From Synechococcus sp. A10-1-5-1 (GTDB taxonomy: Bacteria; Cyanobacteriota; Cyanobacteriia; PCC-6307; Cyanobiaceae), in contig NZ_CP096032.1 of NCBI RefSeq assembly GCF_023115425.1, positions 2,170,001 to 2,234,000 of the forward strand: a stretch of DNA of 64,000 nucleotides, given 5' to 3'. This document shows positions 9,199-43,440 of the stretch, in pieces; position 1 is the stretch's first letter; the number at the start of each line of letters is the position of its first letter. Made by a program: the position numbers and the translations under genes. The notes below the pieces were generated by a model. The model had not been told where the DNA came from and ran no database searches. It was given only the letters and a program-made list of their open reading frames with translations.

Positions 9199-9414
9199 GT
9201 GGCCATTGCTCAGATCAAGAACCTGCAGCGCCGTCTTGGTTTGCTTGAGCAAGAGGCCGTTGATGAGGTGAGCCGCGCCTGCGGCAGTGATCTCTGGCAG
9301 ACCGTCGGTTTTGACGTGGTCGACAGCATGGAGGATGCTGACCGCCGTGCCCGCGCGAACTACTACTACGGCCAGCTGCAGGTGGTGCGTGAGCTGAAGG
9401 ACGCTTTGGGCTAG
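9199..9414 (+). CDS. Conserved picocyanobacterial hypothetical protein; island insertion site
   Basis: A 71-residue soluble, charged protein (start GTG) of the kind conserved in marine Synechococcus and Prochlorococcus; function unknown. Residues 51-60 include RRARANYYY. Its last 38 nt (9378-9415) recur with one mismatch at 43403-43440, next to a convergent core gene. This copy is complete, whereas the far copy is only the 3' tail, as after site-specific integration into the 3' end of a gene. Confidence 0.8.
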   Translation: MAIAQIKNLQRRLGLLEQEAVDEVSRACGSDLWQTVGFDVVDSMEDADRRARANYYYGQLQVVRELKDALG

Positions 9415-9415
9415 A
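9378..9415. repeat. Left direct repeat (putative attL of 34-kb island)
   Basis: A 38-nt sequence, from GCAGGTGGTGCG to TTGGGCTAGA, made of the end of the 9199-9414 gene and its stop codon. The same sequence with one T/C change lies at 43403-43440. Everything between looks accessory; everything outside looks like core genome. Confidence 0.65.
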
Positions 9416-10288: not shown

Positions 10289-10357
10289 CGGGGCGCAGCT
10301 TGGTAGCGCGGGTGCTTTGGGAGCACTAGGTCGCAGGTTCGAATCCTGTCGCCCCGA
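10289..10357 (+). tRNA. tRNA-Pro(UGG)-like gene, 5 nt short, probably defective
   Basis: The 3' three quarters is a normal tRNA-Pro: anticodon stem-loop GGTGC-TTTGGGA-GCACT (anticodon TGG), variable loop, T arm GCAGG-TTCGAAT-CCTGT and acceptor strand CGCCCCG. The 5' acceptor CGGGGCG is present, but only ten bases (CAGCTTGGTA) separate it from GCGC. A normal gene would have TA, GCGC and a nine-base D loop there, so five bases are missing and the acceptor and D stems cannot both form. It still serves as an integration site: its 3' half is repeated at 19647 and 21468. Confidence 0.7.
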
Positions 10358-10364
10358 TTGATTT
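10312..10364. repeat. tRNA-Pro att copy 1 (element boundary)
   Basis: From GTGCTTTGGGAGCACTAGG to the GATTGATTT after the tRNA end. The block recurs at 19647-19699 and 21468-21516. A tandem GGCACGCAAA repeat (10386-10407) follows, and similar pairs follow the other two copies; these resemble arm-type integrase binding sites. Confidence 0.8.
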
Positions 10365-10504
10365 CTCAGCGAAAGTCATCACGCTGGGCACGCAAAAGGC
10401 ACGCAAAGCCCATCCTCTAGGTCGGCAGCAACACCTCATGCGCTGTTGCACGCTTGAGCTGCCGTGGACACACTGAAGCTCGTGCGTCCCACGAATCTGG
10501 TCGG

Positions 10505-10690
10505 TCCTTACCGCCAGGCTCGTCCTAGTGGATGCGCCACCCCCTTGCACTGACGACAGCACCAAGGCCACAACCGCTGAGGACACGGTCCGAGAGAACC
10601 CCGTGATCCGTGACGGGGTAGTGCCAAGCTCCCCCACCTCAACACTCCCTGCTACTGAGCAGTGGGTCGGGGAGCTGTTTGGCTCACTCT
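10505..10690. repeat. Dispersed repeat R1, copy 1 (frameshifted small membrane gene)
   Basis: The 10358-10764 interval has no convincing intact gene. It holds an R1 unit, read on the minus strand as a degraded copy of the small membrane gene intact at 22829-23011 (shared GATCACGGGG and CTCTCGG followed by GTGTCC, with a one-base shift). Near-identical units follow att copy 2 (19865-20045) and lie at 29605-29690. An inverted repeat around CTCCCTGCTACTGAGCAG lies at its end. Confidence 0.55.
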
Positions 10691-10764
10691 CAATCGGAGG
10701 ATTGAATCCTTTAGTGCCGAGGGAGAAGTGCGTGAGCGGTACTCAGGCGCTCACAGACCACATT

Positions 10765-11517
10765 TCAGAGCTGGGATTCTCCTGGAAGGTCGTTTGACGA
10801 CGAAACCCGCGGAGGAGCTACATGCAGCGACTTTTTCTTTCTTCCGTCGGAGGAGGGCTGCCAATCCGAATAAACAACCTTCCAAGCCTTAACGGTTTCC
10901 GGACCGATTTCATTGATCCGAAGACCAGTTGATCCGTCATTCGAAAGCAATACAAAAGCCTTGCCGTCTACCATGTCGTAGTTAGCCAAAGCGTCCGCGA
11001 TTTCTTTATTGACCCTGAAGACACCATCGCAACCATTGACGACCAGATACCCATCACCATTCTTGATTCCAAAAGACTGAATTGATTCGCTACCAGTAGT
11101 CACCCGTCGACCGAACGATTTATTGGCAACAGTTTCCTGCCTGACCCTGATTGTGTTCCGGCCAAAGAACGAAGCAACCCTGAAAGACTTATTGTAATTG
11201 CGATCAAATACACCAATTGTCGTCCCAGTGATTGGATTTTTCAGTATCACTGGCTTTGAAAGAGGAAACTTAGTACTCTCAAGGTCTTGAGACCTCCAAT
11301 CTTCGGTGATAGTGAAGACTTCGACACCAGGAAAGACCCTGGGAAGCTTCTCAGTCCCGTATTGAATATATTCTTCAGTCCTAGTGGGCGAACAAAGATG
11401 AAGCTCCTCCTTCAGTACGTCACCGTATTTCTTGGGTGATATTTCGTATGCCAATGCCGGCAATGAAGAGACAAGAAATGTCGCGCCAGCGAGAGCTAGC
11501 GGGATGGAGGAACGCAT
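10765..11517 (-). CDS. Secreted hypothetical protein
   Basis: A 250-residue protein with a clear signal peptide (MRSSIPLALAGATFLVSSLP, cleavage probably after ALA). The mature part has two Cys (LHLCSP, VNGCDG) and is otherwise unrecognised. It lies inside the tRNA-Pro-bounded element at the end far from the integrase, the usual place for cargo. Base composition is more AT-rich than the flanking core. Divergent from the next gene across only 29 nt. Confidence 0.6.
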   Translation of the reverse strand: MRSSIPLALAGATFLVSSLPALAYEISPKKYGDVLKEELHLCSPTRTEEYIQYGTEKLPRVFPGVEVFTITEDWRSQDLESTKFPLSKPVILKNPITGTTIGVFDRNYNKSFRVASFFGRNTIRVRQETVANKSFGRRVTTGSESIQSFGIKNGDGYLVVNGCDGVFRVNKEIADALANYDMVDGKAFVLLSNDGSTGLRINEIGPETVKAWKVVYSDWQPSSDGRKKKSLHVAPPRVSSSNDLPGESQL

Positions 11518-11546
11518 AAGCTTCTATTGCCTATACTTAGGCTAGC

Positions 11547-11858
11547 ATGATTTCTGTAGTCATTCGCGGGCGAAAGCCAATGATCGCCTCTGGGTTTGTC
11601 GTGTCAGCGCTATTTGGGATAGCACTGTTGAGCGCTGAATTGCCGGTGAGCGCGGCCCCTTCTGTCTTGGTGAAGAGCGGCGTCAACTGCCCTGGAATCT
11701 ACGTGAAAGCAGGGAGAGGTAAGAATTGCCAAGCAGCGCCTGAATATGTAGACATAATCTATCTTGGAGAGAATACAAGGGAATCCTGTAAACCCACCTA
11801 CACCCGCCTCAATGCTGGCGACAGCAAGTGGTGTGTAAAGTACAGCGAGCAGTACTGA
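11547..11858 (+). CDS. Small secreted Cys-containing protein
   Basis: 103 residues with a positively charged start, a hydrophobic signal core (SGFVVSALFGIALLSA) and a likely cleavage after VSA. The mature part of about 70 residues has four Cys (NCPG, KNCQ, ESCKP, WCVK), which suggests two disulfides outside the cytoplasm. No family recognised. The start could also be Met12 (11580). Divergent from 10765-11517; the two may share a control region. Confidence 0.5.
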   Translation: MISVVIRGRKPMIASGFVVSALFGIALLSAELPVSAAPSVLVKSGVNCPGIYVKAGRGKNCQAAPEYVDIIYLGENTRESCKPTYTRLNAGDSKWCVKYSEQY

Positions 11859-11917
11859 TACATTCCAATAAGCTTACTCGCAAGAAGGGCAAGTTGGTGT
11901 GGGGTTTTAGTCCACAA

Positions 11918-12268
11918 CTATCTCCTTCTTGCCTTATGCATAGCCTCCTCAAGAAGTCGCCACTCAGCTGCCGTATGGCGCGTCTTCCACCCGTACCGTT
12001 CGCACAGAGCATTGCAGTAGTCCCCAATCCTGAGGATCGTCTCCAGGTCAACGCGGCTAAGCCGTTCCTTGGCGACCACGTTCCGGTCGCTCCAATTCAC
12101 TACCTGAGCGACACGCTCCCGCAGTCCATTCATCTCCAGCTGCCGATGACCCCTCTCATTCAGTGAGATGAAGTCATCTAAGTAGCCGTCATCCATCAAG
12201 TTCTGAAGGCTTGAGCGGCTCCGATACCCAAGCTCTCTTGCTGCCGCTGCAATGCTCTTAATCACCAC
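11918..12268 (-). CDS. Small HTH-type hypothetical protein of the satellite
   Basis: A 116-residue basic protein. The N-terminus (AAAARELGYRSRSSLQNLM, then DDGYLDDF) looks like a winged or MerR-like helix-turn-helix used by excisionases and other small DNA-binding proteins. The rest is helical with many Arg and Lys and ends KARRR. It is on the same strand as the integrase-ATPase-capsid block, as its last member. A regulatory or packaging role is possible but is inference only. Confidence 0.5.
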   Translation of the reverse strand: MVIKSIAAAARELGYRSRSSLQNLMDDGYLDDFISLNERGHRQLEMNGLRERVAQVVNWSDRNVVAKERLSRVDLETILRIGDYCNALCERYGWKTRHTAAEWRLLEEAMHKARRR

Positions 12269-12361
12269 TATTTGACTGAATCCTGCGTCTAAACCAGCCT
12301 AGGAACTTCGGCTCTAACGCTAGACAAGCTGCGAGCCTTCGGATGACCCGTAGGCATAAAA

Positions 12362-12410
12362 GGCAAAAGGACCCATGAGCATTAATGCTGTCAGCCCATG
12401 GGTCAGGCCT
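12362..12410 (-). terminator. Stem-loop terminator after the barrel gene
   Basis: On the minus strand, GACCCATG and CATGGGTC form an 8-bp stem around an internal AGCATTAATGCT palindrome, followed by CCTTTTGCCTTTT. It lies just after the stop of 12414-13589. Confidence 0.6.
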
Positions 12411-12413
12411 CAA

Positions 12414-13589
12414 CTATTCAGCAGCAGCTTCAGCCAAGACTTCAGCATCAAGACCAGGATTCGCTTCAAGAATTGCGGAAGCTTCCGAAGGGTTGTCGAT
12501 AATCTGATCAGCAAGCTCTTGCTCCGAGGCGGGCAGCTTGCTATATATTTTTTTCAGGATTGAAACTATCTTGTCGATTGTTAGGCCAGCCACTAGTTTA
12601 ACGCCGTAAGATTCTACATCATGTGCAACATGCGTCCAAAAACACTTGTCCCAGAATGCACAGTCATGAATTCGGATATCGCGGTTTCCTGGAGATGCTG
12701 TAAGGGCCTTTAAAAGATTATTTGCAGCAATTGGACCATTTGGTGATTGGCCAAATAAATACGAAAACCCAATGCTCGCACGTGACTCAAATGCAGGGTC
12801 ATATGAAGCCTTGCCGTAGATCTCCAAGCCTCGAGACAACTCATATCCGAGTCGCAGCTTTATCCCTGAGTTGCTTACGCTATAGTCACCATTTTGATAA
12901 TAGTATCCCACTCCAACATTGACTTGGTTGTTTATGTTGTAGCCTGCATCAATTCCGTATGTAGACAATGCTCCAGCGTATGCCAAGTTGTTGAGTCTTT
13001 GCTCTTTGTCTCCCACGGGGATGAGCGCATAAGGCTTAAGTTGCCAGTCTTTGGCAACAACCTCTGCTTCGGCGCTAACTTGCGTAAATAGAGGGGTTCG
13101 CTCGTCTAGCGAGAGTCCATATTTATTAGCAAAGCCTACTATTGAACCGCTCTTTACTGGCCTTGACTCAAATCCTCCATTCAGTCCAAGCACAACAGCC
13201 CTGCTCTTGTTAAAGTAGCGATATCCAATTCGAGATGAGGTTGAAATAGTAGTTCCATCAACATATGTATTGACGATGCTACTGAGAGTGTCGAGATCGG
13301 CGAAGTTGGCATTCGCTAGGACATCAGCAAAGAAGACGCTGTTCCTGCCGACCACCAGTGGAAGGAAGCCACCCAGACCTGCTTGGTTGGGCGTGCCAGC
13401 CGCTTGGGTTTGACCTTGGATGCCGACCCGAGGCTTGACGACGTCCTTGAGGCTGATGCTCATTACGCCCAGGTGACTAGCTGTGCCTTGAGCGACTTGA
13501 GCGGGCTTGGCGCTGACCGCAGGCAATGAAGCGATAGAGAGGGCAGCGGTGCCCAGTGCGGCTAGAGAGACCCGTGCGGACTGCTGCAT
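12414..13589 (-). CDS. Inverse-autotransporter-like outer-membrane beta-barrel protein (cargo)
   Basis: A 391-residue secreted protein. Start Met at 13589 gives a good signal peptide (VSLAALGTAALSIASLPAVSA). Residues of about 60-280 alternate polar and hydrophobic strands with the inverse-autotransporter barrel pattern: LPLVVGRNSVFFADVL, ANFADLDTLSSIVNTY, STSSRIGYRYF, and later VGVGYYYQNGDYSVS and RASIGFSYLFG. A tail of about 110 residues lacks barrel character, contains two Cys and ends in an acidic, Ala-rich segment. It sits directly downstream of the capsid gene. A role in surface change, for example phage resistance or adhesion, is inference. Confidence 0.65.
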   Translation of the reverse strand: MQQSARVSLAALGTAALSIASLPAVSAKPAQVAQGTASHLGVMSISLKDVVKPRVGIQGQTQAAGTPNQAGLGGFLPLVVGRNSVFFADVLANANFADLDTLSSIVNTYVDGTTISTSSRIGYRYFNKSRAVVLGLNGGFESRPVKSGSIVGFANKYGLSLDERTPLFTQVSAEAEVVAKDWQLKPYALIPVGDKEQRLNNLAYAGALSTYGIDAGYNINNQVNVGVGYYYQNGDYSVSNSGIKLRLGYELSRGLEIYGKASYDPAFESRASIGFSYLFGQSPNGPIAANNLLKALTASPGNRDIRIHDCAFWDKCFWTHVAHDVESYGVKLVAGLTIDKIVSILKKIYSKLPASEQELADQIIDNPSEASAILEANPGLDAEVLAEAAAE

Positions 13590-13722
13590 AACCCGTATTT
13601 TTCGCGGCACTATGCCGCAGAAAGTTCCGTTGCAAGAGAAGTGGGAGCAGTTCCAGAAATGGCAAGAAAAAGGCGACCACAAGGCCGCCTGATACACCTA
13701 ATCCCAGTCGCAGTCTAGAAAG

Positions 13723-15321
13723 TCAGGCGATTGCATCCTTCATCGCAGCAAACGACTCCGGGTGTCTGACAGCGATATCAATCGACTGCAGCGCCCGGAT
13801 GCCAGTCGTGCCCTTGGCGAAGTCGGTGTAGGGGTCCACCAGGATTTCCAAGGTGCCGTACAGGCCGATCAGCAGGTCGCTGAAGTTCCCGTAGACGATC
13901 GCACTCAGGTTGGTGCCAGTGCCCTTGCTGAGATTGCTTGGCACGTTGTTGCTGACCTCAAAGCGACGCCCCGCAATCTGCGAACGACTTAGCTCAGTGC
14001 CATAGGGCGAGAGCAGGTACTGGCTTTGGCTGTCCTTGAGCTTGCTGAGGACTGCTTCCACCTTGGCGTTGGTGAGGAAGCCGCAGCTCGCCACATCGGC
14101 GTTGTCGACAGCGACCTCTTTTTTGAGGTCCATCAAATGATCGAGGGTCGGAGCCAAACCATTGGTTCCGCCAGCGACAGATCCGATCCCTGAGGTGTTC
14201 AGGATTCCAGTGGGCTGACTGCTGGAGCCGGAGCCATTGATCGCAGCGGTGTCGATTGCCTCTGCGAGCAGAGCAACGAAGTCATCACGGATGAGCCGCT
14301 CGATGTCCGGAGTGCTCTGCAGGTTCATCAGGTGAGAGAACTTGCTCAGTGCACCAACGGTTTTTGGGCTCATCGTCACGGTGCCGATAGTCCCGGTGCT
14401 CGCGGTGACGCTGTCGCTGTCATCAGCGCCAAACCAGTACGCCGTAGCCGTGCCTGTTCTCTTAGGGATGCTTACGTCACCCACCAAGCCGCCAAGGAAG
14501 GTCGCGCCAAGCTCTGCAACCGCTAAGCGATCACGCAGCGCCTCGATGAAATTGGTGGCTAGGTGATCGGTGGCGATCAAGTTGCCGCCTGCCGTCGCTG
14601 TACCGGCCACATAGGTCCTTGTTGTCCAGCCGTTATCCGGAACAAAGAAGCCCTGGGTTCGGCGGCCGTTGCGGTGCTCAAGCTCCTGATTGATCTCCGC
14701 TTCTCGCCCCCGCAGTCCGCGTCCTGAGGCGATGCCTTGGGCGGCGCGAACAATGCTGAATTGTTCGGCTTCTCGCTTGTACTCAGCCTCAGGGTCAAGG
14801 CCTGCAGGGCCGATCGGTTCGTAGGTCATGGGTGTGTGAGTGGTAGTTGCTAGGGCGCGGTTCACGCCAATCGATGCGTCGGCCGGAATGCTCACGACGC
14901 TCAGCTCAATCGGTTGCCAGCGAGTGACGCGCATAACGCCTGCGTCCTGCTCGGCATCCAGCACGGAGTAGCCAACAGAGATGTTGGGCATCACGCCTGC
15001 TTCCACGTCCTTGCGGACTTGAACAGCAAGGTCGTTTGTGGCCCAAGTAATGCGGGCCATGCCGCGGCGTCTCTCATCGATCCATGCCCGCTCGACAATC
15101 CCGAGGATTCGATCCGGGTCGTGGTTCAACAGCAGCGGTGCTGCTCCACCGTTCAGCCGCGTGAGGTCAACTGCGTCTCGGTTGTGATCCAACACCTCAT
15201 CACCGAAGTAACGCGTAACGGGTGTTTCCGAGCTGAACGAGAACTCAAGCTGATCACTGTCAGACCTGGTTTCATTGATCGTGAGATAACGCCGCTGAAT
15301 CTCGACAGCGGTAGTGGTCAT
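13723..15321 (-). CDS. HK97-type prohead serine protease fused to major capsid protein
   Basis: A 532-residue fusion of two phage head genes. Residues 1 to about 190 match HK97-family prohead proteases (GGAAPLLLNHD with the catalytic-type His, VEAGVMPNISVGYSV, and ELSVVSIPADASIG with the Ser). From about 220 the protein is an HK97-fold major capsid protein (GRRTQGFFVP, TATAGGNLIATDH, GATFLGGLVGDVSIPK, PDIERLIRDDFVALLA, GSGSSSQPTGILN, and C-terminal FAKGTTGIRALQSIDIAVRHPESFAAM). The start at 15321 has a strong GGAGGGA site; an upstream frame to 15420 is rejected. No portal, terminase or tail gene accompanies it. Confidence 0.92.
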   Translation of the reverse strand: MTTTAVEIQRRYLTINETRSDSDQLEFSFSSETPVTRYFGDEVLDHNRDAVDLTRLNGGAAPLLLNHDPDRILGIVERAWIDERRRGMARITWATNDLAVQVRKDVEAGVMPNISVGYSVLDAEQDAGVMRVTRWQPIELSVVSIPADASIGVNRALATTTHTPMTYEPIGPAGLDPEAEYKREAEQFSIVRAAQGIASGRGLRGREAEINQELEHRNGRRTQGFFVPDNGWTTRTYVAGTATAGGNLIATDHLATNFIEALRDRLAVAELGATFLGGLVGDVSIPKRTGTATAYWFGADDSDSVTASTGTIGTVTMSPKTVGALSKFSHLMNLQSTPDIERLIRDDFVALLAEAIDTAAINGSGSSSQPTGILNTSGIGSVAGGTNGLAPTLDHLMDLKKEVAVDNADVASCGFLTNAKVEAVLSKLKDSQSQYLLSPYGTELSRSQIAGRRFEVSNNVPSNLSKGTGTNLSAIVYGNFSDLLIGLYGTLEILVDPYTDFAKGTTGIRALQSIDIAVRHPESFAAMKDAIA

Positions 15322-15544
15322 TGATTCCCTCCAAGTAGAGGTCTCGTAGATAACGACGCTGTTGAGCGCTTGCGAGGCAATCTTCCAAGGGATTTGGAAC
15401 CCTTGGCATGTCGTCATCAACGAGCACTTTCATCTTCAATGCTAGAGATATTACAACCCTGAAAATAGTCGTTCTGCTGAATACGACTAATTGAAGGTAG
15501 TCAATACCTGCGACGCTCTTGTGCGCCCTTGGTGGAGACTAAAA

Positions 15545-15644
15545 AAGGTTTTAAAGGTTTAAAAGGCTGCAACTGCCAAAGGGGCGTGACTCAAAAAGAG
15601 CAGTGACCGTCTGAGGAGAGAGCCTTAAAAACCTTTAAAACCTT
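15545..15644. other. AT-rich inverted repeat / iterons: candidate satellite origin
   Basis: Two 22-nt arms (15545-15566 and 15623-15644) are inverted copies with two mismatches. They are built from 9-10 nt units of the CCTTTAAAA / TTTTAAAGG type, and flank about 56 nt. The region lies between the replication-type ATPase stop and the capsid start, where no coding frame is evident (15322-15651). Iterons next to a replication gene suggest an origin; a transcription control site is the alternative. Confidence 0.5.
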
Positions 15645-15651
15645 CAAATGG

Positions 15652-17025
15652 TCAGCTGAGCATGGCTCTGATCACCTCATCCACTGGCCGAAAGAGAGCA
15701 GCTGGTGCACCTCCTCGCTTGCCATTGGGCTCTCGGTGGCCATCTTCCACGATCAGGTGTTTGCGCTCTAAGGCCAGGAGTGTCTCTCTGGCTTTTTGAG
15801 CCGCATTGACCTCAATGCCTAGGGCGTTGCCGAGGTGTGGAGCATCCATCCCTTTGTGAGTGGATTGGTAATGCAGGCAAAGGTCCTTGAGCGCCTTGTA
15901 CTGACGATCAGTGAGGTCCTCGATCACGCCTTGCAGAGCTGCTTGGCGTGCAACCTCCTCGCCCGAGCCGTGAAAGATCCAGCCGTTGTCGGTTTGCTCG
16001 ATCAGCAAATCAATCGGAGCTGACTCGCGCCCTTCAGCCATCACCTTGATGCGCTTGTCTCGAGGAGCAAGGGGATTGTCATTCCCATCACTCAGCGAGT
16101 TGATCACCACGGTTTGGCTCACGCAGCTAGGCAAGGCGTTGTTGCCTCGGCTTGCCTCTGACGCCCTCATCCCACCTGATCGCTTCAACGAGTGGTGGAT
16201 CAGGATCAGCGTCGCCTGATAGGAGTCGATCGCTTCCGTCAGATCCATGCACGGTTCAGCGAAAGAGGCATCTCTTTCTTGGATCCCGAGCTTGTTGAGG
16301 CAGGCGTGATAACTGTCGGTCAACAGAATCAAGCCTGGGTAGTGGCGGCAGTAGTCGTCAACGATGCGCTCGATGCCCTCATCGTCGAGACAGAGCGGTG
16401 CTCCTTTGTGGAATAGACCGACGATCGACCGGTGCATGGTCCCGTCGGGCTGCAATAGCCCAGCGAGCTGGAGGCATTTCGCCCAATCGCGTTGCGGTTG
16501 GTCTGTACCAATGATCAGGATTTTGGGGTCATGGCTTGGATAAAGCGGCTGGCCCAAAAAGGACCTTTCGCCGTGCACCAGAGCACCGAGAACGGCGCAC
16601 ATCAGCCTTGACTTGCCCACCTTTGGTGGGCCCACGAAGAGATTGGAGGTGCCGCGTAGAAGCACTCCCTCCCACAGCCATGGGGCTTCCACAAGCGAGA
16701 GCCTCCCGCCTTGCGGAATCGGCTCAACAACGCCTCTCAGCTTTTGACGTTCTTGCCAGAGAAGACGCCGTAGCTCGTCATCTCGTAGGCATGTTGTGAG
16801 TTCAGAGGCTGCTCGACGGAGGTGAATGATCCGCTGATAGCTGGGAATGGCCTCATCGGTCAGTAGATCACGCGCCTTGCATTGCAGGCTTCTCAGCTCA
16901 TCGGCGATGGATGGTTTGCGGTGTGGTTGTCGAGCAACGCGTTTGAGGCTGCTTTGAACCTTGGCTGAGTTTTCCAGGCGGTCAAAGTCCTCCTGGGTGT
17001 CTAGCCAGTCGAGGTTGTTTGTCAT
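15652..17025 (-). CDS. P-loop ATPase/helicase of RepA (AAA_25) type, replication protein
   Basis: A 457-residue P-loop ATPase like the hexameric RepA/DnaB-related helicases of plasmids and satellites. Walker A is GPPKVGKS at about residue 134; a Walker-B-like strand GLILLTDSYHACL and the later LILIHHSLKR (sensor-like His) follow. The last 100 residues look like a winged-helix DNA-binding domain (LTDRQYKALKDLCLHY, then LGNALGIEVNAAQKARETL). The start at 17025 has an AGGAGG site and overlaps the upstream stop (ATGA); an upstream in-frame Met at 17064 is less likely. Probably replicates the element. Confidence 0.8.
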   Translation of the reverse strand: MTNNLDWLDTQEDFDRLENSAKVQSSLKRVARQPHRKPSIADELRSLQCKARDLLTDEAIPSYQRIIHLRRAASELTTCLRDDELRRLLWQERQKLRGVVEPIPQGGRLSLVEAPWLWEGVLLRGTSNLFVGPPKVGKSRLMCAVLGALVHGERSFLGQPLYPSHDPKILIIGTDQPQRDWAKCLQLAGLLQPDGTMHRSIVGLFHKGAPLCLDDEGIERIVDDYCRHYPGLILLTDSYHACLNKLGIQERDASFAEPCMDLTEAIDSYQATLILIHHSLKRSGGMRASEASRGNNALPSCVSQTVVINSLSDGNDNPLAPRDKRIKVMAEGRESAPIDLLIEQTDNGWIFHGSGEEVARQAALQGVIEDLTDRQYKALKDLCLHYQSTHKGMDAPHLGNALGIEVNAAQKARETLLALERKHLIVEDGHREPNGKRGGAPAALFRPVDEVIRAMLS

Positions 17026-17288
17026 CGGAATGACCTCCTCGCTAGCTGAACCATGCGCAGGCAACCAATGGGATTGTGGTGTTCAAGAAGGCGTGCAGCC
17101 TCGTCGTAATCAGCCTTCGTCCAAGTTTGATTGGGGGTGAGGTGAATCAAGGCGCGGGTCACGCCATGGGACTCCAAGGGCCGCGAAAAATCTGCGTAAT
17201 GCCGCCAGCGATAACGCTGAGCTGCGATTAAATTGTCGGTACAGATTTCTTCCCGACCCCCAGCATCAACTGGGGGTTTTTTATGCAT
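17022..17288 (-). CDS. Small satellite protein, operon member
   Basis: An 88-residue basic protein of unknown function (contains RYRWRHYADFSRPLE and TWTKADYDEAARLLEHH). ATG 17286-17288 overlaps the upstream stop (ATGCATAA) and its own stop overlaps the ATPase start, so it is translationally coupled on both sides. A strong plus-strand terminator lies over its first codons. The upstream open stretch to 17372 overlaps the previous gene and is not used here. Confidence 0.5.
   Translation of the reverse strand: MHKKPPVDAGGREEICTDNLIAAQRYRWRHYADFSRPLESHGVTRALIHLTPNQTWTKADYDEAARLLEHHNPIGCLRMVQLARRSFR
17256..17282 (+). terminator. Plus-strand intrinsic terminator inside a minus-strand operon
   Basis: A perfect 8-bp stem, ACCCCCAG (17256-17263) and CTGGGGGT (17270-17277), with a 6-nt loop, is followed by TTTTTT on the plus strand. 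No annotated plus-strand gene ends here, so it would stop an antisense transcript. Confidence 0.7.
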
Positions 17289-17556
17289 TTTCGAGGTGCT
17301 CCAGGCGTTGTGTAAGGGCTGAAATTCCGGTCTTGAGGTGAGCGGACACCTCGCGCGCCAAGTCGGCCGCACGCTCGCTTGCAGCGCGATTGCAGCCAGC
17401 CGCCTCTTGGAGCTGGCTTACCGCGGCAAGCAGTGCTGTCGTGCTTTCGATGAGGTGATGCTCTAGCTCCGTGGAAGCCAGAGGCATCAACTCATCCCGC
17501 CACACCTCCGATTGCGCTTGGACGCGTTCAGCAGTCCAAAAGACGTTGGTGTTCAT
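17281..17556 (-). CDS. Small helical satellite protein
   Basis: 91 residues, strongly helical with heptad-like Leu and Ala (LLAAVSQLQEAAGC, AADLAREVSAHLKTG, LTQRLEHLENA), so probably a coiled coil. Function unknown. Its start overlaps the stop of the HTH gene by 4 nt and its end overlaps the next start. Position between the HTH gene and the ATPase suggests a replication accessory or regulatory role, by inference only. Confidence 0.55.
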   Translation of the reverse strand: MNTNVFWTAERVQAQSEVWRDELMPLASTELEHHLIESTTALLAAVSQLQEAAGCNRAASERAADLAREVSAHLKTGISALTQRLEHLENA

Positions 17557-17795
17557 CGAGCCGCCTCCGCAAGCTCAAGGGTGCGGTGATCGCGAGCAAA
17601 GGCCTCGCTGATGGTTTGGTCACATCGCTGTAGGTGATAAAGCAGCGACGAATTGGCGGCAGGGAACTTCCTGCGGAAATGAATGCCAGGCTTGAGCAAG
17701 CCAGCTGAACGCCAACGCAAGAGCGTGCGTTCACTGACGCCGAGATGATCTGCCGCAGCACGCTGCGGCACCCAAATGGGTGTCGAATTAGTCAT
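17553..17795 (-). CDS. MerR/AlpA-like HTH DNA-binding protein (excisionase candidate)
   Basis: An 80-residue protein with an N-terminal helix-turn-helix, VPQRAAADHLGVSERTLLRW followed by RSAGLLKPGIHFRRK. This is the pattern of AlpA/excisionase-like winged helix proteins that bind near att sites or control integrase and replication genes. Two genes away from the integrase, as in many satellites. Start overlaps the upstream stop by 4 nt. Confidence 0.7.
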   Translation of the reverse strand: MTNSTPIWVPQRAAADHLGVSERTLLRWRSAGLLKPGIHFRRKFPAANSSLLYHLQRCDQTISEAFARDHRTLELAEAAR

Positions 17796-18163
17796 TTTTC
17801 AAACGGTAGAAAGCCTTTTGCCCTCAATGCCGCGCGTAAATGTGGCTCGGTGGTGTTACGAAACGGGTTTGGCTCAACTCCCCACTGCAACTCGCCGCCT
17901 TCGTAAACGGTGACTCCATTTGGGAGGTTTCGCACAGCCGTGTTCGTACGAATCCATCGACCAGAAAAACCACCTCGTTCCACCCAGTTAGACCAAAGAC
18001 GATCGCAGATCTTGCTGCGGTCAATACCTCCATCAATGTCCATGAGTTCCTCAAGAACCTCCAGGGGTAGGTCCTGAGGAGCACGGTGCGCCGAGACAAA
18101 AACATGTCGACCGTTGATGGTGATCTTTGATGGTTGAGCGAAGCGGTTCTTCTTTCGCGTCAT
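17792..18163 (-). CDS. Hypothetical satellite protein
   Basis: 123 residues, no family recognised. A basic start (MTRKKNRFAQPSKITING), a helical acidic middle (LEVLEELMDIDGGIDRSKI) and a C-terminal part with NTTEPHLRAALRAKGFLP. The middle could be a small DNA-binding fold. It is the first gene of the tightly coupled run that ends with the ATPase (overlaps of 4-8 nt throughout), 136 nt downstream of the integrase stop. Confidence 0.5.
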   Translation of the reverse strand: MTRKKNRFAQPSKITINGRHVFVSAHRAPQDLPLEVLEELMDIDGGIDRSKICDRLWSNWVERGGFSGRWIRTNTAVRNLPNGVTVYEGGELQWGVEPNPFRNTTEPHLRAALRAKGFLPFEK

Positions 18164-18299
18164 CAGGGAAAGGCAATTGAACCGTTGAATCTCCCGTTAG
18201 ACCGCCGAGGTGGAATCGGTACTGCCTAAGGCAGGAGTGGTGCCACAAGGACTAGCCACTCGCAACTTACTAAAAGCATACAAGGAATGGCGTGACCTG

Positions 18300-19574
18300 C
18301 TAGTTCCTGGCGCGACTTCTGGCTTTTTCAAAGGCCGACGCAGCTCCACTCTCAGTCGCCCAGGGGTAACTGCGGCAATGCGTTTCAAGGCTGTGTCCCA
18401 TAGCAAGAGCCATTGCACCGCTGTCGATTCCAAGCTGATGACCACGCACTGAAAAGCTATGCCTAAAGCTGTAGACACTGACCCGTTCGTTATTCACCTC
18501 GACCTGTCTACGTATATCTTTCCAGCCATCCCTGCGGCTCAAATAGGTCTTGATTGCTTCGGCTACACCATTGCTTGACGAAAGCGGCGGCAGATCAATC
18601 TCGCCTGCTTTCCAGCGCTGCATCAGATCCCATTGCTGCACCTCACCTGAATCAGCTCGAAGAGGTAGCGGTTCCAAACGGCGAGGCTTGGTGACCCCAC
18701 CTCCAGCTCGCTTCTCGTAGCTGCACCACCAATACGGCTCACCGGTCTTGCGATCGGTTTTGACGCTGAGGTGGAGCAACTCAATCGGGCGCAGTCCCAG
18801 CTCAGCGAGAAGACGAATGGCATCAGCCCAGCGACGCCCCGGTGCGTCATCAGGAAATGAGGCCAGCAAATCGATGATCTGCTGATCAGTGATCGGATCA
18901 ACCTTTTGGCTTTGGGCGTCGGCTGGCTTACGGCCGATGTGGTCCTTGAGGTCGATAGGGGGCTGCCAGATCGCGGGGAACTGCTCTCTGGCGACGCAGT
19001 AGCGGAGGAACTGGCAGAGGTTTCGCGCCCGCTCCTGCCTGGTGCGGCTACCGGAAGCCCATGAGCGAATGCAGCGATCAATCAGCTCTGCAGGGCTGGT
19101 GGGCTGATCATTCCCCGTTAGGAGCGCCACTGCATCACCAAGCACCGGGACGTACTTGGCTTCCCAGGTAGCTGGCTTGATGACCGTGCCATGCAGGAGC
19201 TTCTGATCCTTGAAGCGCTCTACAGCCCCGCTCCAATCGAGCTGCTCAATCAGCTTTGGCGCCTTGCCTGCAGCGACCTGTGCGGCCTGCTTGAGGGAGT
19301 AGCCCTCCGAGGCGACGAGCTTGTAGATGTTGCGAACTCTTACATAAGCATCTCCCGCGTCGTTTGCCGACCAGGCAAACGGCAGGGTTACTGACTGACT
19401 TGGAGTGCTGTCGGAGCGGACCTTGAGACGCACTCGACCACGGGCTTCCTCCACTGTCCAACCACGGGCAAGCGCTCTCGCCTGCTGGCGCAGGGAAGTA
19501 GCCCAAGCCTCGGAATGGACAACCTCGGGCACAAGCGTGGGCAAGACGTGGGCAAAACCTACTGAAATGGGCAC
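18300..19574 (-). CDS. Tyrosine-recombinase integrase (tRNA-Pro site)
   Basis: A 424-residue phage-type integrase. The N-terminal half holds an arm/core-binding SAM-like domain (YVRVRNIYKLVASEGYSLKQ). The catalytic half has the first Arg in AELGLRPIELLHLS (about 260), SVYSFRHSFSVRGHQLG (about 375), the MGHS His (about 391) and the Tyr in HCRSYPWA (about 400). The usual His of the HxLR box is Ser, a known variation. The start is GTG 19574. It lies 70 nt from att copy 2, as in integrative elements, and presumably catalyses exchange between the tRNA-Pro repeats. Confidence 0.93.
   Translation of the reverse strand: MPISVGFAHVLPTLVPEVVHSEAWATSLRQQARALARGWTVEEARGRVRLKVRSDSTPSQSVTLPFAWSANDAGDAYVRVRNIYKLVASEGYSLKQAAQVAAGKAPKLIEQLDWSGAVERFKDQKLLHGTVIKPATWEAKYVPVLGDAVALLTGNDQPTSPAELIDRCIRSWASGSRTRQERARNLCQFLRYCVAREQFPAIWQPPIDLKDHIGRKPADAQSQKVDPITDQQIIDLLASFPDDAPGRRWADAIRLLAELGLRPIELLHLSVKTDRKTGEPYWWCSYEKRAGGGVTKPRRLEPLPLRADSGEVQQWDLMQRWKAGEIDLPPLSSSNGVAEAIKTYLSRRDGWKDIRRQVEVNNERVSVYSFRHSFSVRGHQLGIDSGAMALAMGHSLETHCRSYPWATESGAASAFEKARSRARN
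19534..19558. promoter_or_regulatory. Tandem GTGGGCAA repeats near the integrase start (arm-type site candidate)
   Basis: Direct repeats of the form CGTGGGCAAGA and CGTGGGCAAAA lie within the first codons of the integrase. Similar pairs lie beside each tRNA-Pro att copy (10386, 19722, 21543) and at 39611-39632, where no integrase remains. Confidence 0.4.
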
Positions 19575-19646
19575 GACAAGACAAGGCAGAGCAGGTCAGA
19601 GTCCCTGCTATGACCTGGGTTCCCGCTTAGAAGCCACATGTCTCGA

Positions 19647-19699
19647 GTGCTTTGGGAGCACTAGGTCGCAGGTTCGGCTCCTGTCGCCCCGATTGATTT
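19647..19699. repeat. tRNA-Pro att copy 2 (junction of the two elements)
   Basis: Same 3' tRNA-Pro block as at 10312, with changes in the T loop (TTCGGCT for TTCGAAT). No 5' half of a tRNA is present. It lies 72 nt upstream of the integrase start and is followed by a TGTGCGCAAG-type tandem repeat (19722-19742) and an R1 unit. Confidence 0.85.
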
Positions 19700-19864
19700 G
19701 AGAGCTAGTGCCCGGTTCGCTTGTGCGCAAGATGCGCGCAAGTGGTCAAGACGCGCTCGAAGGCGAGCAGCTGGATCGCAACCAACCCCTAATGCGCCGT
19801 TGCGCGCTTGAACGGCCACGGACACACTGAACTTCGTGCATCTCACGAATCTGGCTGGTCCTTG

Positions 19865-20045
19865 CCTCCAGGCTCGTCCTAGTGGATGCGCCACCCCCTT
19901 GCACTGATGGCAGCACCAAGGCCATAACCGCTGAGGACACGGTCCGAGAGAACCCCGTGATCCGTGACGGGGTAGTTCCAAGCTTCCCCAATAACTCCCC
20001 CATCGCGCGCTCTGCTCCTGCCCGCTGGGGGTTTGTTGTGAGTGC
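19865..20045. repeat. Dispersed repeat R1, copy 2
   Basis: The 634-nt gap between the integrase and the DUF4239 gene contains att copy 2 and this R1 unit, nearly identical to 10505-10690 over its central 130 nt. It ends with a CTGGGGGTTTGTTGTG segment that also recurs at 33983 and 26960. No intact gene seen. Confidence 0.55.
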
Positions 20046-20208
20046 CACGGGCGCAGAACACCCTCGAATGCAACGGATGAAAAGGGAGTTGATGACCAGC
20101 GGCCTCAAGCTCGCCATCGTTGGAGCTGATGCGGCTGAGCCGATGGACTTGACAACTCAGACCTGCACCAAATATCGGGCCTGAGGCCGGATCCATCAGA
20201 CCCGAATA

Positions 20209-20994
20209 ATGCTGTATTCCCTACCGAACTTCGCTCTTGGACCCATCCTCCTGGCGGTGTTCGTCAGCACGACCCTGGGAGTCGCCGCCTACATAATTGT
20301 CTTCAAGATCAGGCTGTTCGATCACCTGATCAATAAGCCACTGGTTCCTCCCTTCATCGTTATACCCATCAGCGTCCTGGCGCTGCTGTTGGCGTTCATG
20401 GCGTCATCCGCTTGGCAGAACAGGACAACAGCAATATCAGCTTTGCAAAGCGAAGCGATAGCGCTCAACCGGTTGGGCATCATCGCGGCCACTTCCCCTG
20501 CCCTGGCGCGCGAGCTGAAGGGAGATCTTTCCTCCTACATCCACCTGTTGGAGCGAGGTGAATGGGGCAATGCTTACAACATGAGGCGTCAGCAAGAGGT
20601 TGACCAAATCCTATCCAACCTCTACAAGCGCGCCTGGATGATCGACGCTGGCGCCTGCACCGCGCAGGAGGCCGGATCCCAGTGCACCACCAAAGCCATG
20701 GCGGCTGAGATCCTGACAGAAATCAAGCAGCTCGAAGCAGCTCGGGAGCAACGCCTCTCGATCGGCAGGCAGTCGAACTTGAGCCATGGGAAAAAGTGGG
20801 CCATTATCTATCTACTAACCCTGGTATCCAATATCACGATTGGGGCCGTACATCGTGCTTATCGACAAACAGCCATCACCGCAATCGTGCTCTGGTGCCT
20901 ATGCACAGCACTAGTCTTTTCCATGATTAAGCTGTACATTCACCCCTACAAGGGATTCGATCCAATCACTCCTGATCTCAGCAGACTGAGCTGA
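20209..20994 (+). CDS. DUF4239 (bestrophin-like) membrane protein
   Basis: A 261-residue membrane protein with two N-terminal spans (LAVFVSTTLGVAAYIIVF; FIVIPISVLALLLAFMAS) and two near the C-terminus (AIIYLLTLVSNITIGAV; AIVLWCLCTALVFSMIKLY). A soluble helical part between carries SSAWQNRTTAISALQSEAIAL, typical of DUF4239 proteins, which resemble bestrophin channels. Function in cyanobacteria unknown. It is the only intact gene between att copies 2 and 3, so it is cargo of the decayed second element. Confidence 0.65.
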   Translation: MLYSLPNFALGPILLAVFVSTTLGVAAYIIVFKIRLFDHLINKPLVPPFIVIPISVLALLLAFMASSAWQNRTTAISALQSEAIALNRLGIIAATSPALARELKGDLSSYIHLLERGEWGNAYNMRRQQEVDQILSNLYKRAWMIDAGACTAQEAGSQCTTKAMAAEILTEIKQLEAAREQRLSIGRQSNLSHGKKWAIIYLLTLVSNITIGAVHRAYRQTAITAIVLWCLCTALVFSMIKLYIHPYKGFDPITPDLSRLS

Positions 20995-21007
20995 TTCTGC
21001 TAACCCT

Positions 21008-21400
21008 TCACGTCGCCCCATGCATAGCCTTCTCCCACATCCTGGATGCCCAGTCGAGCTGATCAATCAGCTTTGGCGCCTTGCCTGCAGCGACCTCTGC
21101 GGCCTGCTTGAGGGAGTAGCCCTCCGAGGCGACGAGCTTGTAGATGTTGCGAACGCGGGTAAGAGCGTCGCCGACGCTGCCCTCAGCCCAATCGAATGGG
21201 AGCACGACTGACTAACGGGAGACCCCTTTAGCTCTCACCTCCAATCGGATTGCGCCGCGATGCTCGCGGACACTCCAGCCTTCAGCCGTAGAGGAGCGAA
21301 CGCTCGTACGTAGCCCCTCTGCCCATTTTTCGGCAAATCGAATGGCTGGCACAGAGTGTGCGCAAGTTGCGCGCATGTATAGCCAAACCCGACCGGGCAA
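21008..21400 (-). pseudogene. Truncated second tyrosine integrase
   Basis: Only the N-terminal 130 residues of an integrase related to 18300-19574 remain (TRVRNIYKLVASEGYSLKQ, AAGKAPKLIDQLDW). There is an in-frame TAG at 21212-21214, after RAKGVSR, and the homology stops abruptly after QLDW, so the catalytic domain is lost. It lies 68 nt from att copy 3, the same arrangement as the intact integrase and att copy 2. Confidence 0.85.
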
Positions 21401-21467
21401 GGCAAGCCAAATTCGGCCATAAGGCTTGCTATGACTGAAGAAGTCAATCAGCCACCGACTACATCGG

Positions 21468-21516
21468 GTGCTTTGGGAGCACTAGGTCGCAGATTCGAAT
21501 CCTGTCGCCCCGATTG
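21468..21516. repeat. tRNA-Pro att copy 3
   Basis: Third copy of the tRNA-Pro 3' block, from GTGCTTTGGGAGCAC to GCCCCGATTGA, with one T-stem change (GCAGA for GCAGG). A GGCACGCAAA tandem pair follows at 21543-21563, as beside copy 1. Confidence 0.85.
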
Positions 21517-21714
21517 AGATTTCAGGGGATGCCCTCAAGCAGGGCACGCAAATCGCACGCAAACCGCTCAGGGGGCTGCTACACCTCCACAACCTCTTCC
21601 GCCTCAGCCCATCATTGAGCCGAATGGGCACGGAAAACGGAGCCTGAGCGCCAGCGATCACACGGCCCCGGCAGCCGACCCAAGCCTTTGGCCCTAAGCA
21701 AAGGCTTGGTGCCC

Positions 21715-35131: not shown

Positions 35132-37804
35132 ATGCCGGGATCTCTCGCTTCTGTGCATGTATTGAGTGCGGAGGAGGTGATCGCTGCACTGGAGACTGAT
35201 TTCGTTTGTGGTCTAGCCCAAGAGGAGGCGGAGGCACGCCTTCAAAAGGAGGGACCCAATAGGCTCAGTCCAGCTCCGCAGAAGCCGTTATGGCTGCGCT
35301 TGCTTCAGCAGTTCGACAACCCGCTGCTGATCACACTGCTCATGGTTGGAGCCATCAAGCTGGCGATTGGCGACCCCCAGGATGCGCTGGTGATCATCAG
35401 CGTCACCTGCATCAACGCCGTCATTGGCACGGTGCAGGAAGGCAAAGCCGAGAGTGCCATCGCGGCCCTTGCTGAGAGCGTCCGAACGGATGTTGTGGTG
35501 CTTCGAGACCGGTCTATCCAGCGCTTGGATTCAGAGCTGCTGGTGCCGGGGGATCTGGTTCAGCTCGAGGCTGGTTCGAAGGTCCCAGCGGATCTGCGGC
35601 TCCTCACGGCCCGGTCGCTGGCAACCGATGAGTCAGCCCTCACCGGCGAGTCTTTGCCTGTACAGAAAGGGACGGAACCGTTGAATCCTGCTGTGCCCCT
35701 CGCTGAGCGCAGCTGTATGGCTTATGCGGGGAGTTTTGTGACCGCAGGCCAGGGAACTGGAGTGGTGGTCACGACGGGGGATGCCACTGAAGTGGGCCAG
35801 ATTTCCGCGTCCTTGAATCGCCCTGTCAATCTCTCCACGCCGTTAACCCGCAAGTTGTCGGGTTTCAGTCGAACGTTGTTGAGACTGATTGTGCTGCTGG
35901 CTGCTCTGACCTTTGCGGTTGGCCTGGCCCGAGGCAGAGATCTTGCGGAAATGTTTGACGGGGCGGTGGCGTTAGCCGTTGGCGCGATTCCTGAAGAACT
36001 GCCCGCCATCATCACCATTATTTTGGCGATTGGCGTTCATCGCATGGCTAAACGCCAGGCCATCATCCGCAAGTTGCCCGCGGTTGAGACCCTGGGCAGC
36101 ACCACGGTGATCTGCTCCGACAAAACCGGGACTCTCACCCAGAACCGGATGACCGTCCAGCATGTGTATGCGGCCGGAGTGTTGCAAGCGCTGCATGAGC
36201 TTTGGCCCGCTGATCAGCCGGCTGGGGGGCTAAACGTTGCCCTGCACGAAACACTTCTGGCTGGCCTCCTGTGCAACGACGCCCGCGCGAGTGGAGCCTG
36301 TGGATGGGTTGGCGATCCCACCGAGACGGCCCTGTTGGAGGCGGCGCAACGGGTGGGGATTAGTCATGGTTCAGCCCACGATGACTACCCCCGTAGGGAT
36401 GTCATTCCCTTCGAATCAGAGCAGCAATACATGGCCACCTTGCATGGCCAGCAGCGCATCTTGTTGAAGGGATCTGTGGAGGCCGTTCTTCAGCGCTGCT
36501 CGGATGAGTTGGATCAGCACGGGGAGCACAGGGAGCTCAACGCATCAGCCATTCAGGAGGCGGTTTCGGCGATGGCCGGCCAAGGCGAGCGCGTGTTGGC
36601 GTTCGCTATCGGCCAGGGGGGGCCTAGACAGGAGCAACTGGAGCATCACCACCTCAATGGCGACCTGACCTTCTTGGGTTTGCAAGGGATGCAGGACCCC
36701 CCACGCCCTGAGGCGATCCAAGCGGTAGCTGCCTGCCGGTCGGCTGGGATCAGGGTGAAGCTGATCACTGGAGATCACCTGGAAACAGCCGTGGCGATTG
36801 CTCGGTTGATGGGCATCGGCGCGTCCTCGGAGATCAAGGCCATCGGTGGAACGGCTCTTGATCCTTTATCGCCCGATGCACTTGCTGAGGTGGTCGAGTC
36901 GGTGGATGTCTTCGCGCGGATCACCCCAGCACAGAAGCTGCATCTGGTTGAGGCGCTTCAGGCCAATGGCGAGGTGGTGGCGATGACCGGCGATGGGGTG
37001 AACGATGCCCCTGCCCTCAAGCAAGCTGACATCGGTATCGCCATGGGCCGAAGTGGGACCGAGGTCGCGCGTCAGGCGGCTGACATGCTCTTGATTGACG
37101 ACAACTTCGCGACGATTGAGGCGGCCGTTGAGGAAGGACGCGGCGTCTATCTCAATTTGCGCAAGACCCTGGCCTTCGTTCTCCCTGTGAACGGTGGCGC
37201 TTCGATGACCATCTTGATGGGAGCGCTGCTTGGAACAGCTCTGCCTGTGAGTGCCTTACAGGTGTTGTGGCTGAACATGATTTGTTCACTCACGATGTCG
37301 ATCGCCTTGGCTTTCGAGCCTCACAACCCCGCCTTGATGAGCCAACCCCCACGCCGGCCGGAGGAACCCCTCTTAAGTCCGGGATTAATTCGCCGTGTGC
37401 TTCTGGTCTCCCTTTTCAATTGGTCTGTGATCTTCGGGTTGTTCTTTTGGGGCGAGCAGCAGTTTGGTGATCTGCCGTTGGCCCGCACCATGGCCGTCCA
37501 AGGTTTGGTCCTGGCGCATTTGGTCTATCTGTGGAAAATCAGTCACTGGCGCAGCCTCTGGCCGATCCCCTGGTCGAAAGTGAGAACCTCGCCGGCGGTG
37601 CCTCTCGGAGTGATGGCCACGCTTGCTCTGCAGTGGCTCTTCAGTCAGACGGCTTGGATGAATGCGTTCTTTGGAACGCGACCACTCAATGCTTCCCTCT
37701 TGCTGGTCTGTGCGTTGCCGATGCTGTTCATGATCCCGGTCTGCCGTCTTGCTGAGGGGTTGGACCCCACTGATCTCATTCACCCATCTTCCCGCCCGGC
37801 CTGA
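35132..37804 (+). CDS. P2-type cation-transporting ATPase
   Basis: An 890-residue P-type ATPase that pumps cations across a membrane with ATP. Domains in order: N-terminal cation-ATPase domain, actuator with TGES (about 171), the ion-site helix with [15 protein letters not shown], phosphorylation motif SDKTGTLTQ (Asp about 330), nucleotide domain, the hinge [10 protein letters not shown] (about 619), and a C-terminal block of four or more spans ([20 protein letters not shown]). The P2 (PacL/PMA-like) class is clear. PEEL rather than PEGL in helix 4 leaves the ion uncertain (Ca, Na or H). The largest island gene, without neighbours on its transcript. Confidence 0.92.
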
Positions 37805-43378: not shown

Positions 43379-43402
43379 CAGCTAGGGAGCCATGCAGTTG
43401 CG

Positions 43403-43440
43403 GCAGGTGGTGCGTGAGCTGAAGGACGCTCTGGGCTAGA
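43403..43440. repeat. Right direct repeat (putative attR of 34-kb island)
   Basis: Copy of 9378-9415 with one mismatch. No upstream part of the 9199-9414 gene is present. Its TAG overlaps, on the other strand, the TAG of the convergent gene 43436-43918, as expected if that gene originally met the 9199 gene tail to tail. Confidence 0.65.

Follow-up and report, generated by a model that had tools for sequence, protein, structure and literature searches.

Tycheposons, as Hackl and colleagues are said to have described them in 2023, include viral satellites and are marked by a tRNA integration site, a tyrosine recombinase and tandem tRNA islands. These features, and the host group, are shared by an element in Synechococcus sp. 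A10-1-5-1. It lies in a 64,000-nucleotide (nt) stretch of contig NZ_CP096032.1 (positions 2,170,001 to 2,234,000; hereafter the window, in whose coordinates all positions are given), taken from a genome of 2.40 Mb assembled as a single contig, and it forms a 9335-bp unit bounded by tRNA-Pro 3' ends at 10313 and 19648. Because of its host, site and recombinase, the element is most likely a satellite tycheposon. Tycheposons are named in three papers (PMC10803314, PMC11389934, PMC10872708), and satellite tycheposons are already named as a kind in the first two.

Several other described systems resemble the element in part. Capsid-forming phage-inducible chromosomal islands (PICIs) are likewise satellites with a capsid protein and a head protease, but these also carry genes for portal, connectors and both subunits of terminase, the tail alone coming from a helper (PMC10690885). 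The SaPIbov5 protein Ccm is, as here, a lone capsid homologue whose delta region is shorter than that of the phage, in a satellite described without its own portal or terminase; it differs in having no fused protease, in forming no shells alone and in its Gram-positive host (PMC8569155). Phage-inducible chromosomal minimalist islands (PICMIs) are also small marine satellites with an integrase, AlpA and a primase, but they are described as lacking a capsid-remodelling gene, and their concatemer is packaged in the helper's normal head (PMC10803314). PMC12324425 concerns a different element of 4.6 kb. The siphoviruses S-CBS3, S-CBS1 and S-LBS1 share the protease/capsid fusion (about 38% identity), and the helicase is found in S-CBS3 (34%) and S-CBS1 (31%); unlike the element, they are complete phages, with terminase large subunit (TerL), portal and tail genes in S-CBS3 and S-LBS1. 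Neither a capsid-only class nor a shortened linker is described in the satellite literature searched, which did not include the primary tycheposon description, and our claim is limited to a variant of a known satellite kind.

We consider it probable, with moderate confidence, that the element is an integrative phage satellite of the tycheposon type that makes small heads of its own and obtains the rest of its particle from an infecting helper. A preliminary description of the locus had proposed a satellite that makes its own capsid and borrows tail and lysis genes. The satellite interpretation is supported, and dependence on a helper would be wider than proposed, extending to portal and terminase. 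Of the kin then named, the tycheposon type stands; the element does not fit the published description of capsid-forming PICIs (PMC10690885), and that identity was ruled out, as neither portal nor TerL was found. The features of the locus, with attachment (att) sites, open reading frames (ORFs) and helix-turn-helix (HTH) proteins, are as follows (aa, amino acids).

10289 to 10364, plus strand: shortened tRNA-Pro copy (69 nt) including the left att at 10313 to 10364 (ARAGORN, Rfam, repeat match)
10765 to 11517, minus strand: 250-aa ORF without family match (PHROGs, Pfam)
11547 to 11858, plus strand: 103-aa ORF without family match (PHROGs, Pfam)
11918 to 12268, minus strand: p116, a small HTH protein whose gene follows that of the capsid, from a family in 9 of 13 att-bounded elements
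12414 to 13589, minus strand: outer-membrane beta-barrel-like protein, cargo of a multi-copy family (family match)
13723 to 15321, minus strand: prohead protease (S78) / HK97 major capsid fusion, 532 aa, with shortened linker (Pfam, PHROGs, model)
15322 to 15651, minus strand: 330-bp spacer between replication and capsid genes with a 24-nt inverted repeat (sequence)
15652 to 17064, minus strand: RepA-type helicase (AAA_25; phrog_30286) (Pfam, PHROGs)
17281 to 17556, minus strand: 91-aa protein with relatives in L115 and L441 (comparison)
17553 to 17795, minus strand: AlpA/excisionase-like HTH protein (Pfam, PHROGs)
17792 to 18163, minus strand: 123-aa ORF without family match at E < 0.05
18300 to 19574, minus strand: tyrosine integrase (Pfam, PHROGs, motif residues)
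19648 to 19699, plus strand: right att (repeat match)
19700 to 21520, no strand: second, decayed unit, a neighbour outside the element, with an integrase N-terminal remnant (21008 to 21205, minus strand) and a third att (21469 to 21520)

From the right att, the minus-strand genes run from the integrase through the 123-aa ORF, the AlpA-like HTH protein, the 91-aa protein, the helicase and the fusion to the beta-barrel protein, p116 and the 250-aa ORF. Pfam and PHROGs matches bear out the integrase, HTH protein, P-loop ATPase and protease/capsid fusion recognized earlier. The fusion matches Phage_capsid (E=7e-46), Peptidase_S78 (E=6e-7) and phrog_617, "major head protein" (E=2e-110); its ORF as listed extends to 15420, and the start at 15321 is common to relatives. 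In the integrase, R, RH, H and Y are conserved, with Tyr in place of the first His of the HxxR motif.

Searches of 10 of the element's ORFs in PHROGs and Pfam gave no family for TerL, portal, tail or lysis, in agreement with the preliminary description. The AlpA-like HTH protein matches phrog_57 (terminase small subunit) weakly and in its HTH part only (E=1e-4). That description would have been overturned by a full prophage in close relatives with this copy as its deletion remnant, a case that failed when tested. Profiles based on the TerL and portal proteins of phages detected neither gene at any of the 20 loci L115-L134 (of which L130 and L131 hold distant capsids only), nor at any of the 22 cyanobacterial loci in a scan of named genomes, and the capsids form one clade. 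The same scan found a portal at 31 of 33 other loci, and a portal accompanies 53 of 59 phage-type fusions; of the remaining six, four are on contigs that begin less than 400 bases from the capsid match, and the other two are L041 and L048.

We also scanned 91 further proteins of the 13 att-bounded elements, excluding three ORFs shorter than 50 aa. Pfam matches (16 families in all) included 13 helicase/primase domains (9 AAA_25, 3 VapE-like, 1 DUF3987), 8 HTH_17 and 4 NAD-dependent DNA ligases, and none to terminase, portal or tail. PHROGs gave three weak phrog_57 matches, the best at E=1e-4, in the AlpA-like HTH gene, and no other structural family among the matches listed (25 of 32 families). 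The element thus has the incomplete virion gene set of a phage satellite and shows none of the TerL, portal and tail genes of a complete prophage. A satellite-encoded terminase small subunit is neither shown nor excluded by these matches. The candidate p116 was unsupported in that role: of the 14 members of its family, HTH_17 is matched by 8, an excisionase family by 4 and phrog_57 by 1 (E=0.17). Separately, a 7.8-kb satellite contig encodes a 187-aa HTH protein (L194:3372-3935) whose N-terminal part looks, by eye, like phage terminase small subunits.

A full-length capsid gene is present at 22 picocyanobacterial loci (the window, L115-L123, L142, L143, L145-L151, L154, L155 and L160; each locus counted once and L126 left out), among them Synechococcus AG-683-C23 (L115), Synechococcus AG-670-B23 (L117), Prochlorococcus marinus MIT 9302 (L120) and a Lake Pavin cyanobacterium (L123). 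At these loci the linker from protease end to capsid start, which corresponds to the scaffold or delta region, measures 26-39 residues. A value of -204 for L152 is an artefact of domain-hit picking, and the locus is the same as L123, which scores 28. In phage-type fusions outside the clade the linker measures 92-144 aa in 59 of 59, a comparison in which 22 loci without a fused protease were unscored. It is 88-145 aa at 17 scored non-cyanobacterial loci, 86-184 aa in a further scored contig set except for L194 (29), 81-138 aa in 121 contigs with a portal or TerL, and 121 and 107 aa in S-CBS3 and S-LBS1. Among 48 scored contigs without portal or TerL, the IMG/VR contig L441 (35) alone is short, the next shortest being 81.

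An AlphaFold model of the fusion (predicted local distance difference test, pLDDT, 77.3; 62-row alignment) places a protease, a disordered segment (156-175) and short helices (177-218) before the coat domain; with 10 satellite rows alone, modelling reached a poor pLDDT of 41.5. The fold is that of HK97, and among PDB structures the marine siphophage R4C capsid matches best (34% identity), followed by gene-transfer-agent capsids. In HK97-type phages the delta domain precedes the mature capsid protein and acts as a scaffold; in Ccm it has 87 residues versus 128 in the helper protein, and the shell becomes T=4 (PMC8569155; T, triangulation number). The cut linker may set head size here. In a published size relation, T of about 2.33 gives 8.1 kb, and by that relation 8-9 kb would fit T of about 2.3 to 3 (PMC7762592). 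Shells with T of 2.33-3 are predicted to measure about 38-43 nm.

Capsid matches (E ≤ 0.001) occur in 36 of 300 family genomes, the element's own counted, and many are fragments; the gene is near full length in 11 of those genomes, in one of which (G226) it is split into two pieces within a single frame. Among named genomes, scanning yielded 55 loci, of which 22 are cyanobacterial (L139-L157, L160, L192 and L193), four with a partial gene only. Taking the nearest att copies that flank the capsid gene on both sides, we delimited 13 elements of 6924-9439 bp (mean 8158, standard deviation 765). All 13 contain a capsid gene and, at one end, the gene for a tyrosine integrase, and clustering places an AlpA-like HTH family in 12; the window's own HTH gene was missed by the gene caller and is present in family scans. 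One contig, from Prochlorococcus AG-402-N10, holds two capsid satellites (L143 and L150) at tRNA-Pro att copies, separated by coordinates by another att-bounded unit of about 5.3 kb.

In a 99-row capsid tree, built after removing 22 near-copies and 6 rows that repeated the same contig, 17 satellite rows and L126 (Synechococcus CCY 9618) are separated from 81 phage, prophage and viral-contig rows by a branch with Shimodaira-Hasegawa-like approximate likelihood ratio test (SH-aLRT) support of 96. After 23 further distant rows were omitted and 6 contigs added, the 82-row tree groups 18 satellite rows at 100, and 20 rows including L123 and L126 at 97. Of 14 pairs compared, dS could be computed for 10; in these the ratio of nonsynonymous to synonymous substitution rates (dN/dS) is 0.077-0.251, and the capsid gene is under purifying selection.

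The preliminary description had called for a search for the excised form, and a candidate was found in a relative. Contig L441 (8725 bp) has a 99-bp terminal direct repeat and closes to 8626 bp. It is colinear with the window in the same orientation, with identities of 52% for the integrase, 49% for the HTH protein, 28% for the 91-aa protein, 42% for the helicase and 67% for the capsid, and it carries a p116 relative (46% over 26 residues). A single tRNA-Pro att core (41/44) adjoins its integrase, and it has no portal or TerL match. These features support L441 as having the look that would be expected of an excised circle. In another contig, L234, the two ends of a capsid gene stand at the two contig ends.

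Integration at a tRNA 3' end is visible in the sequence. The 52-nt tRNA-Pro 3' end at 10313-10364 recurs at 19648-19699 with 2 mismatches and at 21469-21520 with 3, with 0 matches in 100 shuffles, so the repeats recognized earlier do bound the element. The tRNA-Pro gene named with them needs qualification: the copy at 10289-10357, on which the att array sits, is scored as a tRNA by ARAGORN and Rfam, but it has 69 nt, 5 fewer than the intact 74-nt tRNA-Pro(TGG) gene about 214 kb from the element, and it may be a decayed second gene. Tycheposon-like integration next to a tRNA with a repeated tRNA 3' end is thus found, with a tRNA copy 5 nt short. A 41-nt direct repeat, the 3' end of a 71-aa ORF, encloses the site at 9375-9415 and 43400-43440 (95% identical) and may bound a larger island of about 34 kb that contains the element. 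Within this variable region, a 244-nt repeat (85%) directly follows the first two att copies (10393-10636 and 19747-19990), related pieces of 49 to 123 nt recur over 10-43 kb, and an 890-aa ORF (35132-37804) resembles, by eye, a P-type cation ATPase. The beta-barrel protein belongs to a multi-copy host family with 5 matches in its own genome and matches in 34 of 151 family genomes.

The nature of the helper can be narrowed only in part. Phage_portal_2, GpA_nuclease, Phage_portal and TerL_ATPase were sought in 11 host genomes, of which 9 have a completeness of 90% or more, and none was found; other terminase families were not searched there; control genomes were positive for each of the four families, Synechococcus elongatus for Phage_portal_2 and GpA_nuclease. 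A helper of these types is therefore more likely to arrive by infection than to reside in the host. S-CBS3 and S-CBS1 each have matches to the capsid and to the helicase, at identities too low for naming a helper.

We propose the following course of events. The integrase would insert the element at the tRNA-Pro 3' end, as its att sites indicate, and would excise it to a closed one-att form like L441. The RepA-type helicase would, by homology, replicate it. Because the capsid is conserved, the linker shortened and the range of element sizes narrow, the protease/capsid fusion with its shortened scaffold may build small heads for a genome of about 7-9.4 kb; that the element makes its own capsid is plausible. 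Portal, terminase, tail and lysis functions, being absent from the element, would come from an infecting, non-resident helper phage. The preliminary description had also named a candidate origin. A 24-nt inverted repeat (arms 15545-15568 and 15621-15644) in the spacer between replication and capsid genes keeps it plausible, but no common motif is found across nine such spacers, whose repeats differ and two of which have none; a role for the spacer as origin or packaging site is a guess. Tentatively, and with some doubt, we add that this lineage may have shrunk an HK97-type head to T=3-like or smaller by cutting its scaffold, keeping only that virion gene and forming mixed particles on the portals and tails of unrelated infecting phages.

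Several observations weigh against a satellite with small heads of its own. Its particle, its packaging and its helper are presumed. L126, inside the capsid clade and without a portal, has a linker of 76 aa. L441 could have been assembled from identical tandem chromosomal copies. A second closed contig, L229 (9151 bp, closing to 9028), carries a primase, a capsid gene without fused protease, an HTH gene and an integrase, but its capsid falls outside the satellite clade, possibly as a second origin. The capsid trees have SH-aLRT as their sole branch support. Satellite DNA may occupy heads larger than its size predicts, as P4 (11.6 kb) uses T=4 (PMC7762592). Finally, decay of the capsid gene is common: among 21 fragments listed, excluding short pieces of residues 212-293 and matches below about 45% identity, 12 include the C-terminus, 8 come from the interior and 1, at a contig end, from the N-terminal part. 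A p116 gene lies within 1.1 kb after the fragment at 7 of 10 loci examined, one of which (L156) is cut by a contig end. C-terminal fragments with p116 at most 1.1 kb downstream, at L124, L129, L132, L133, L134 and L157, are traces of satellites decayed in islands.

The strongest rival, which we regard as possible though rather unlikely, is that the satellite capsid homologue, instead of building the whole head, joins the capsid protein of the helper during assembly and diverts it into a small shell, in the manner of Ccm and phage phi12. Ccm and the capsid here are both lone homologues with a shortened delta domain, and this explanation fits nearly as well as an own capsid. It would require a helper with a compatible HK97-type capsid, and identity to the closest phage capsids found is about 38%; no protease was identified in SaPIbov5 (PMC8569155), whereas here it is fused to the capsid in the 21 of 22 loci that were scored directly, and in L123.

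An improbable second rival holds that a phage capsid gene became a domesticated shell, or nanocompartment, or an anti-phage decoy, and does not serve to carry the element. Encapsulin nanocompartments are commonly described as an HK97 shell protein without a prohead protease, next to a cargo enzyme. They have the same fold (encapsulin 9fy6 ranks 45 among the structural matches), and the capsid here is unaccompanied by a recognisable packaging enzyme. It nevertheless keeps a fused S78 protease and helices before the coat domain, has helicase and HTH genes as neighbours, stands beside an integrase in all 13 att-bounded elements of narrow size range, and finds its top structural matches in phage and gene-transfer-agent capsids. 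A deletion remnant of a complete prophage is by far the least probable and was rejected: capsid and helicase do match the same siphoviruses, and islands often contain pieces of capsid genes like this one, but the capsid tree, an arrangement with capsid and no portal that recurs throughout one divergent clade, the intact att sites, the purifying selection, the absence of phage genes and a closed free relative all argue otherwise.

Few photosynthetic cells are as abundant as Prochlorococcus and Synechococcus, and their tRNA islands are places of gene gain and loss. If our interpretation is correct, a satellite with one virion gene would show how little a mobile element spread by phages must encode. 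The shortened scaffold region offers a direct test of how the size of an HK97-type shell is set, and Prochlorococcus marinus MIT 9302 is a named strain that carries a relative.

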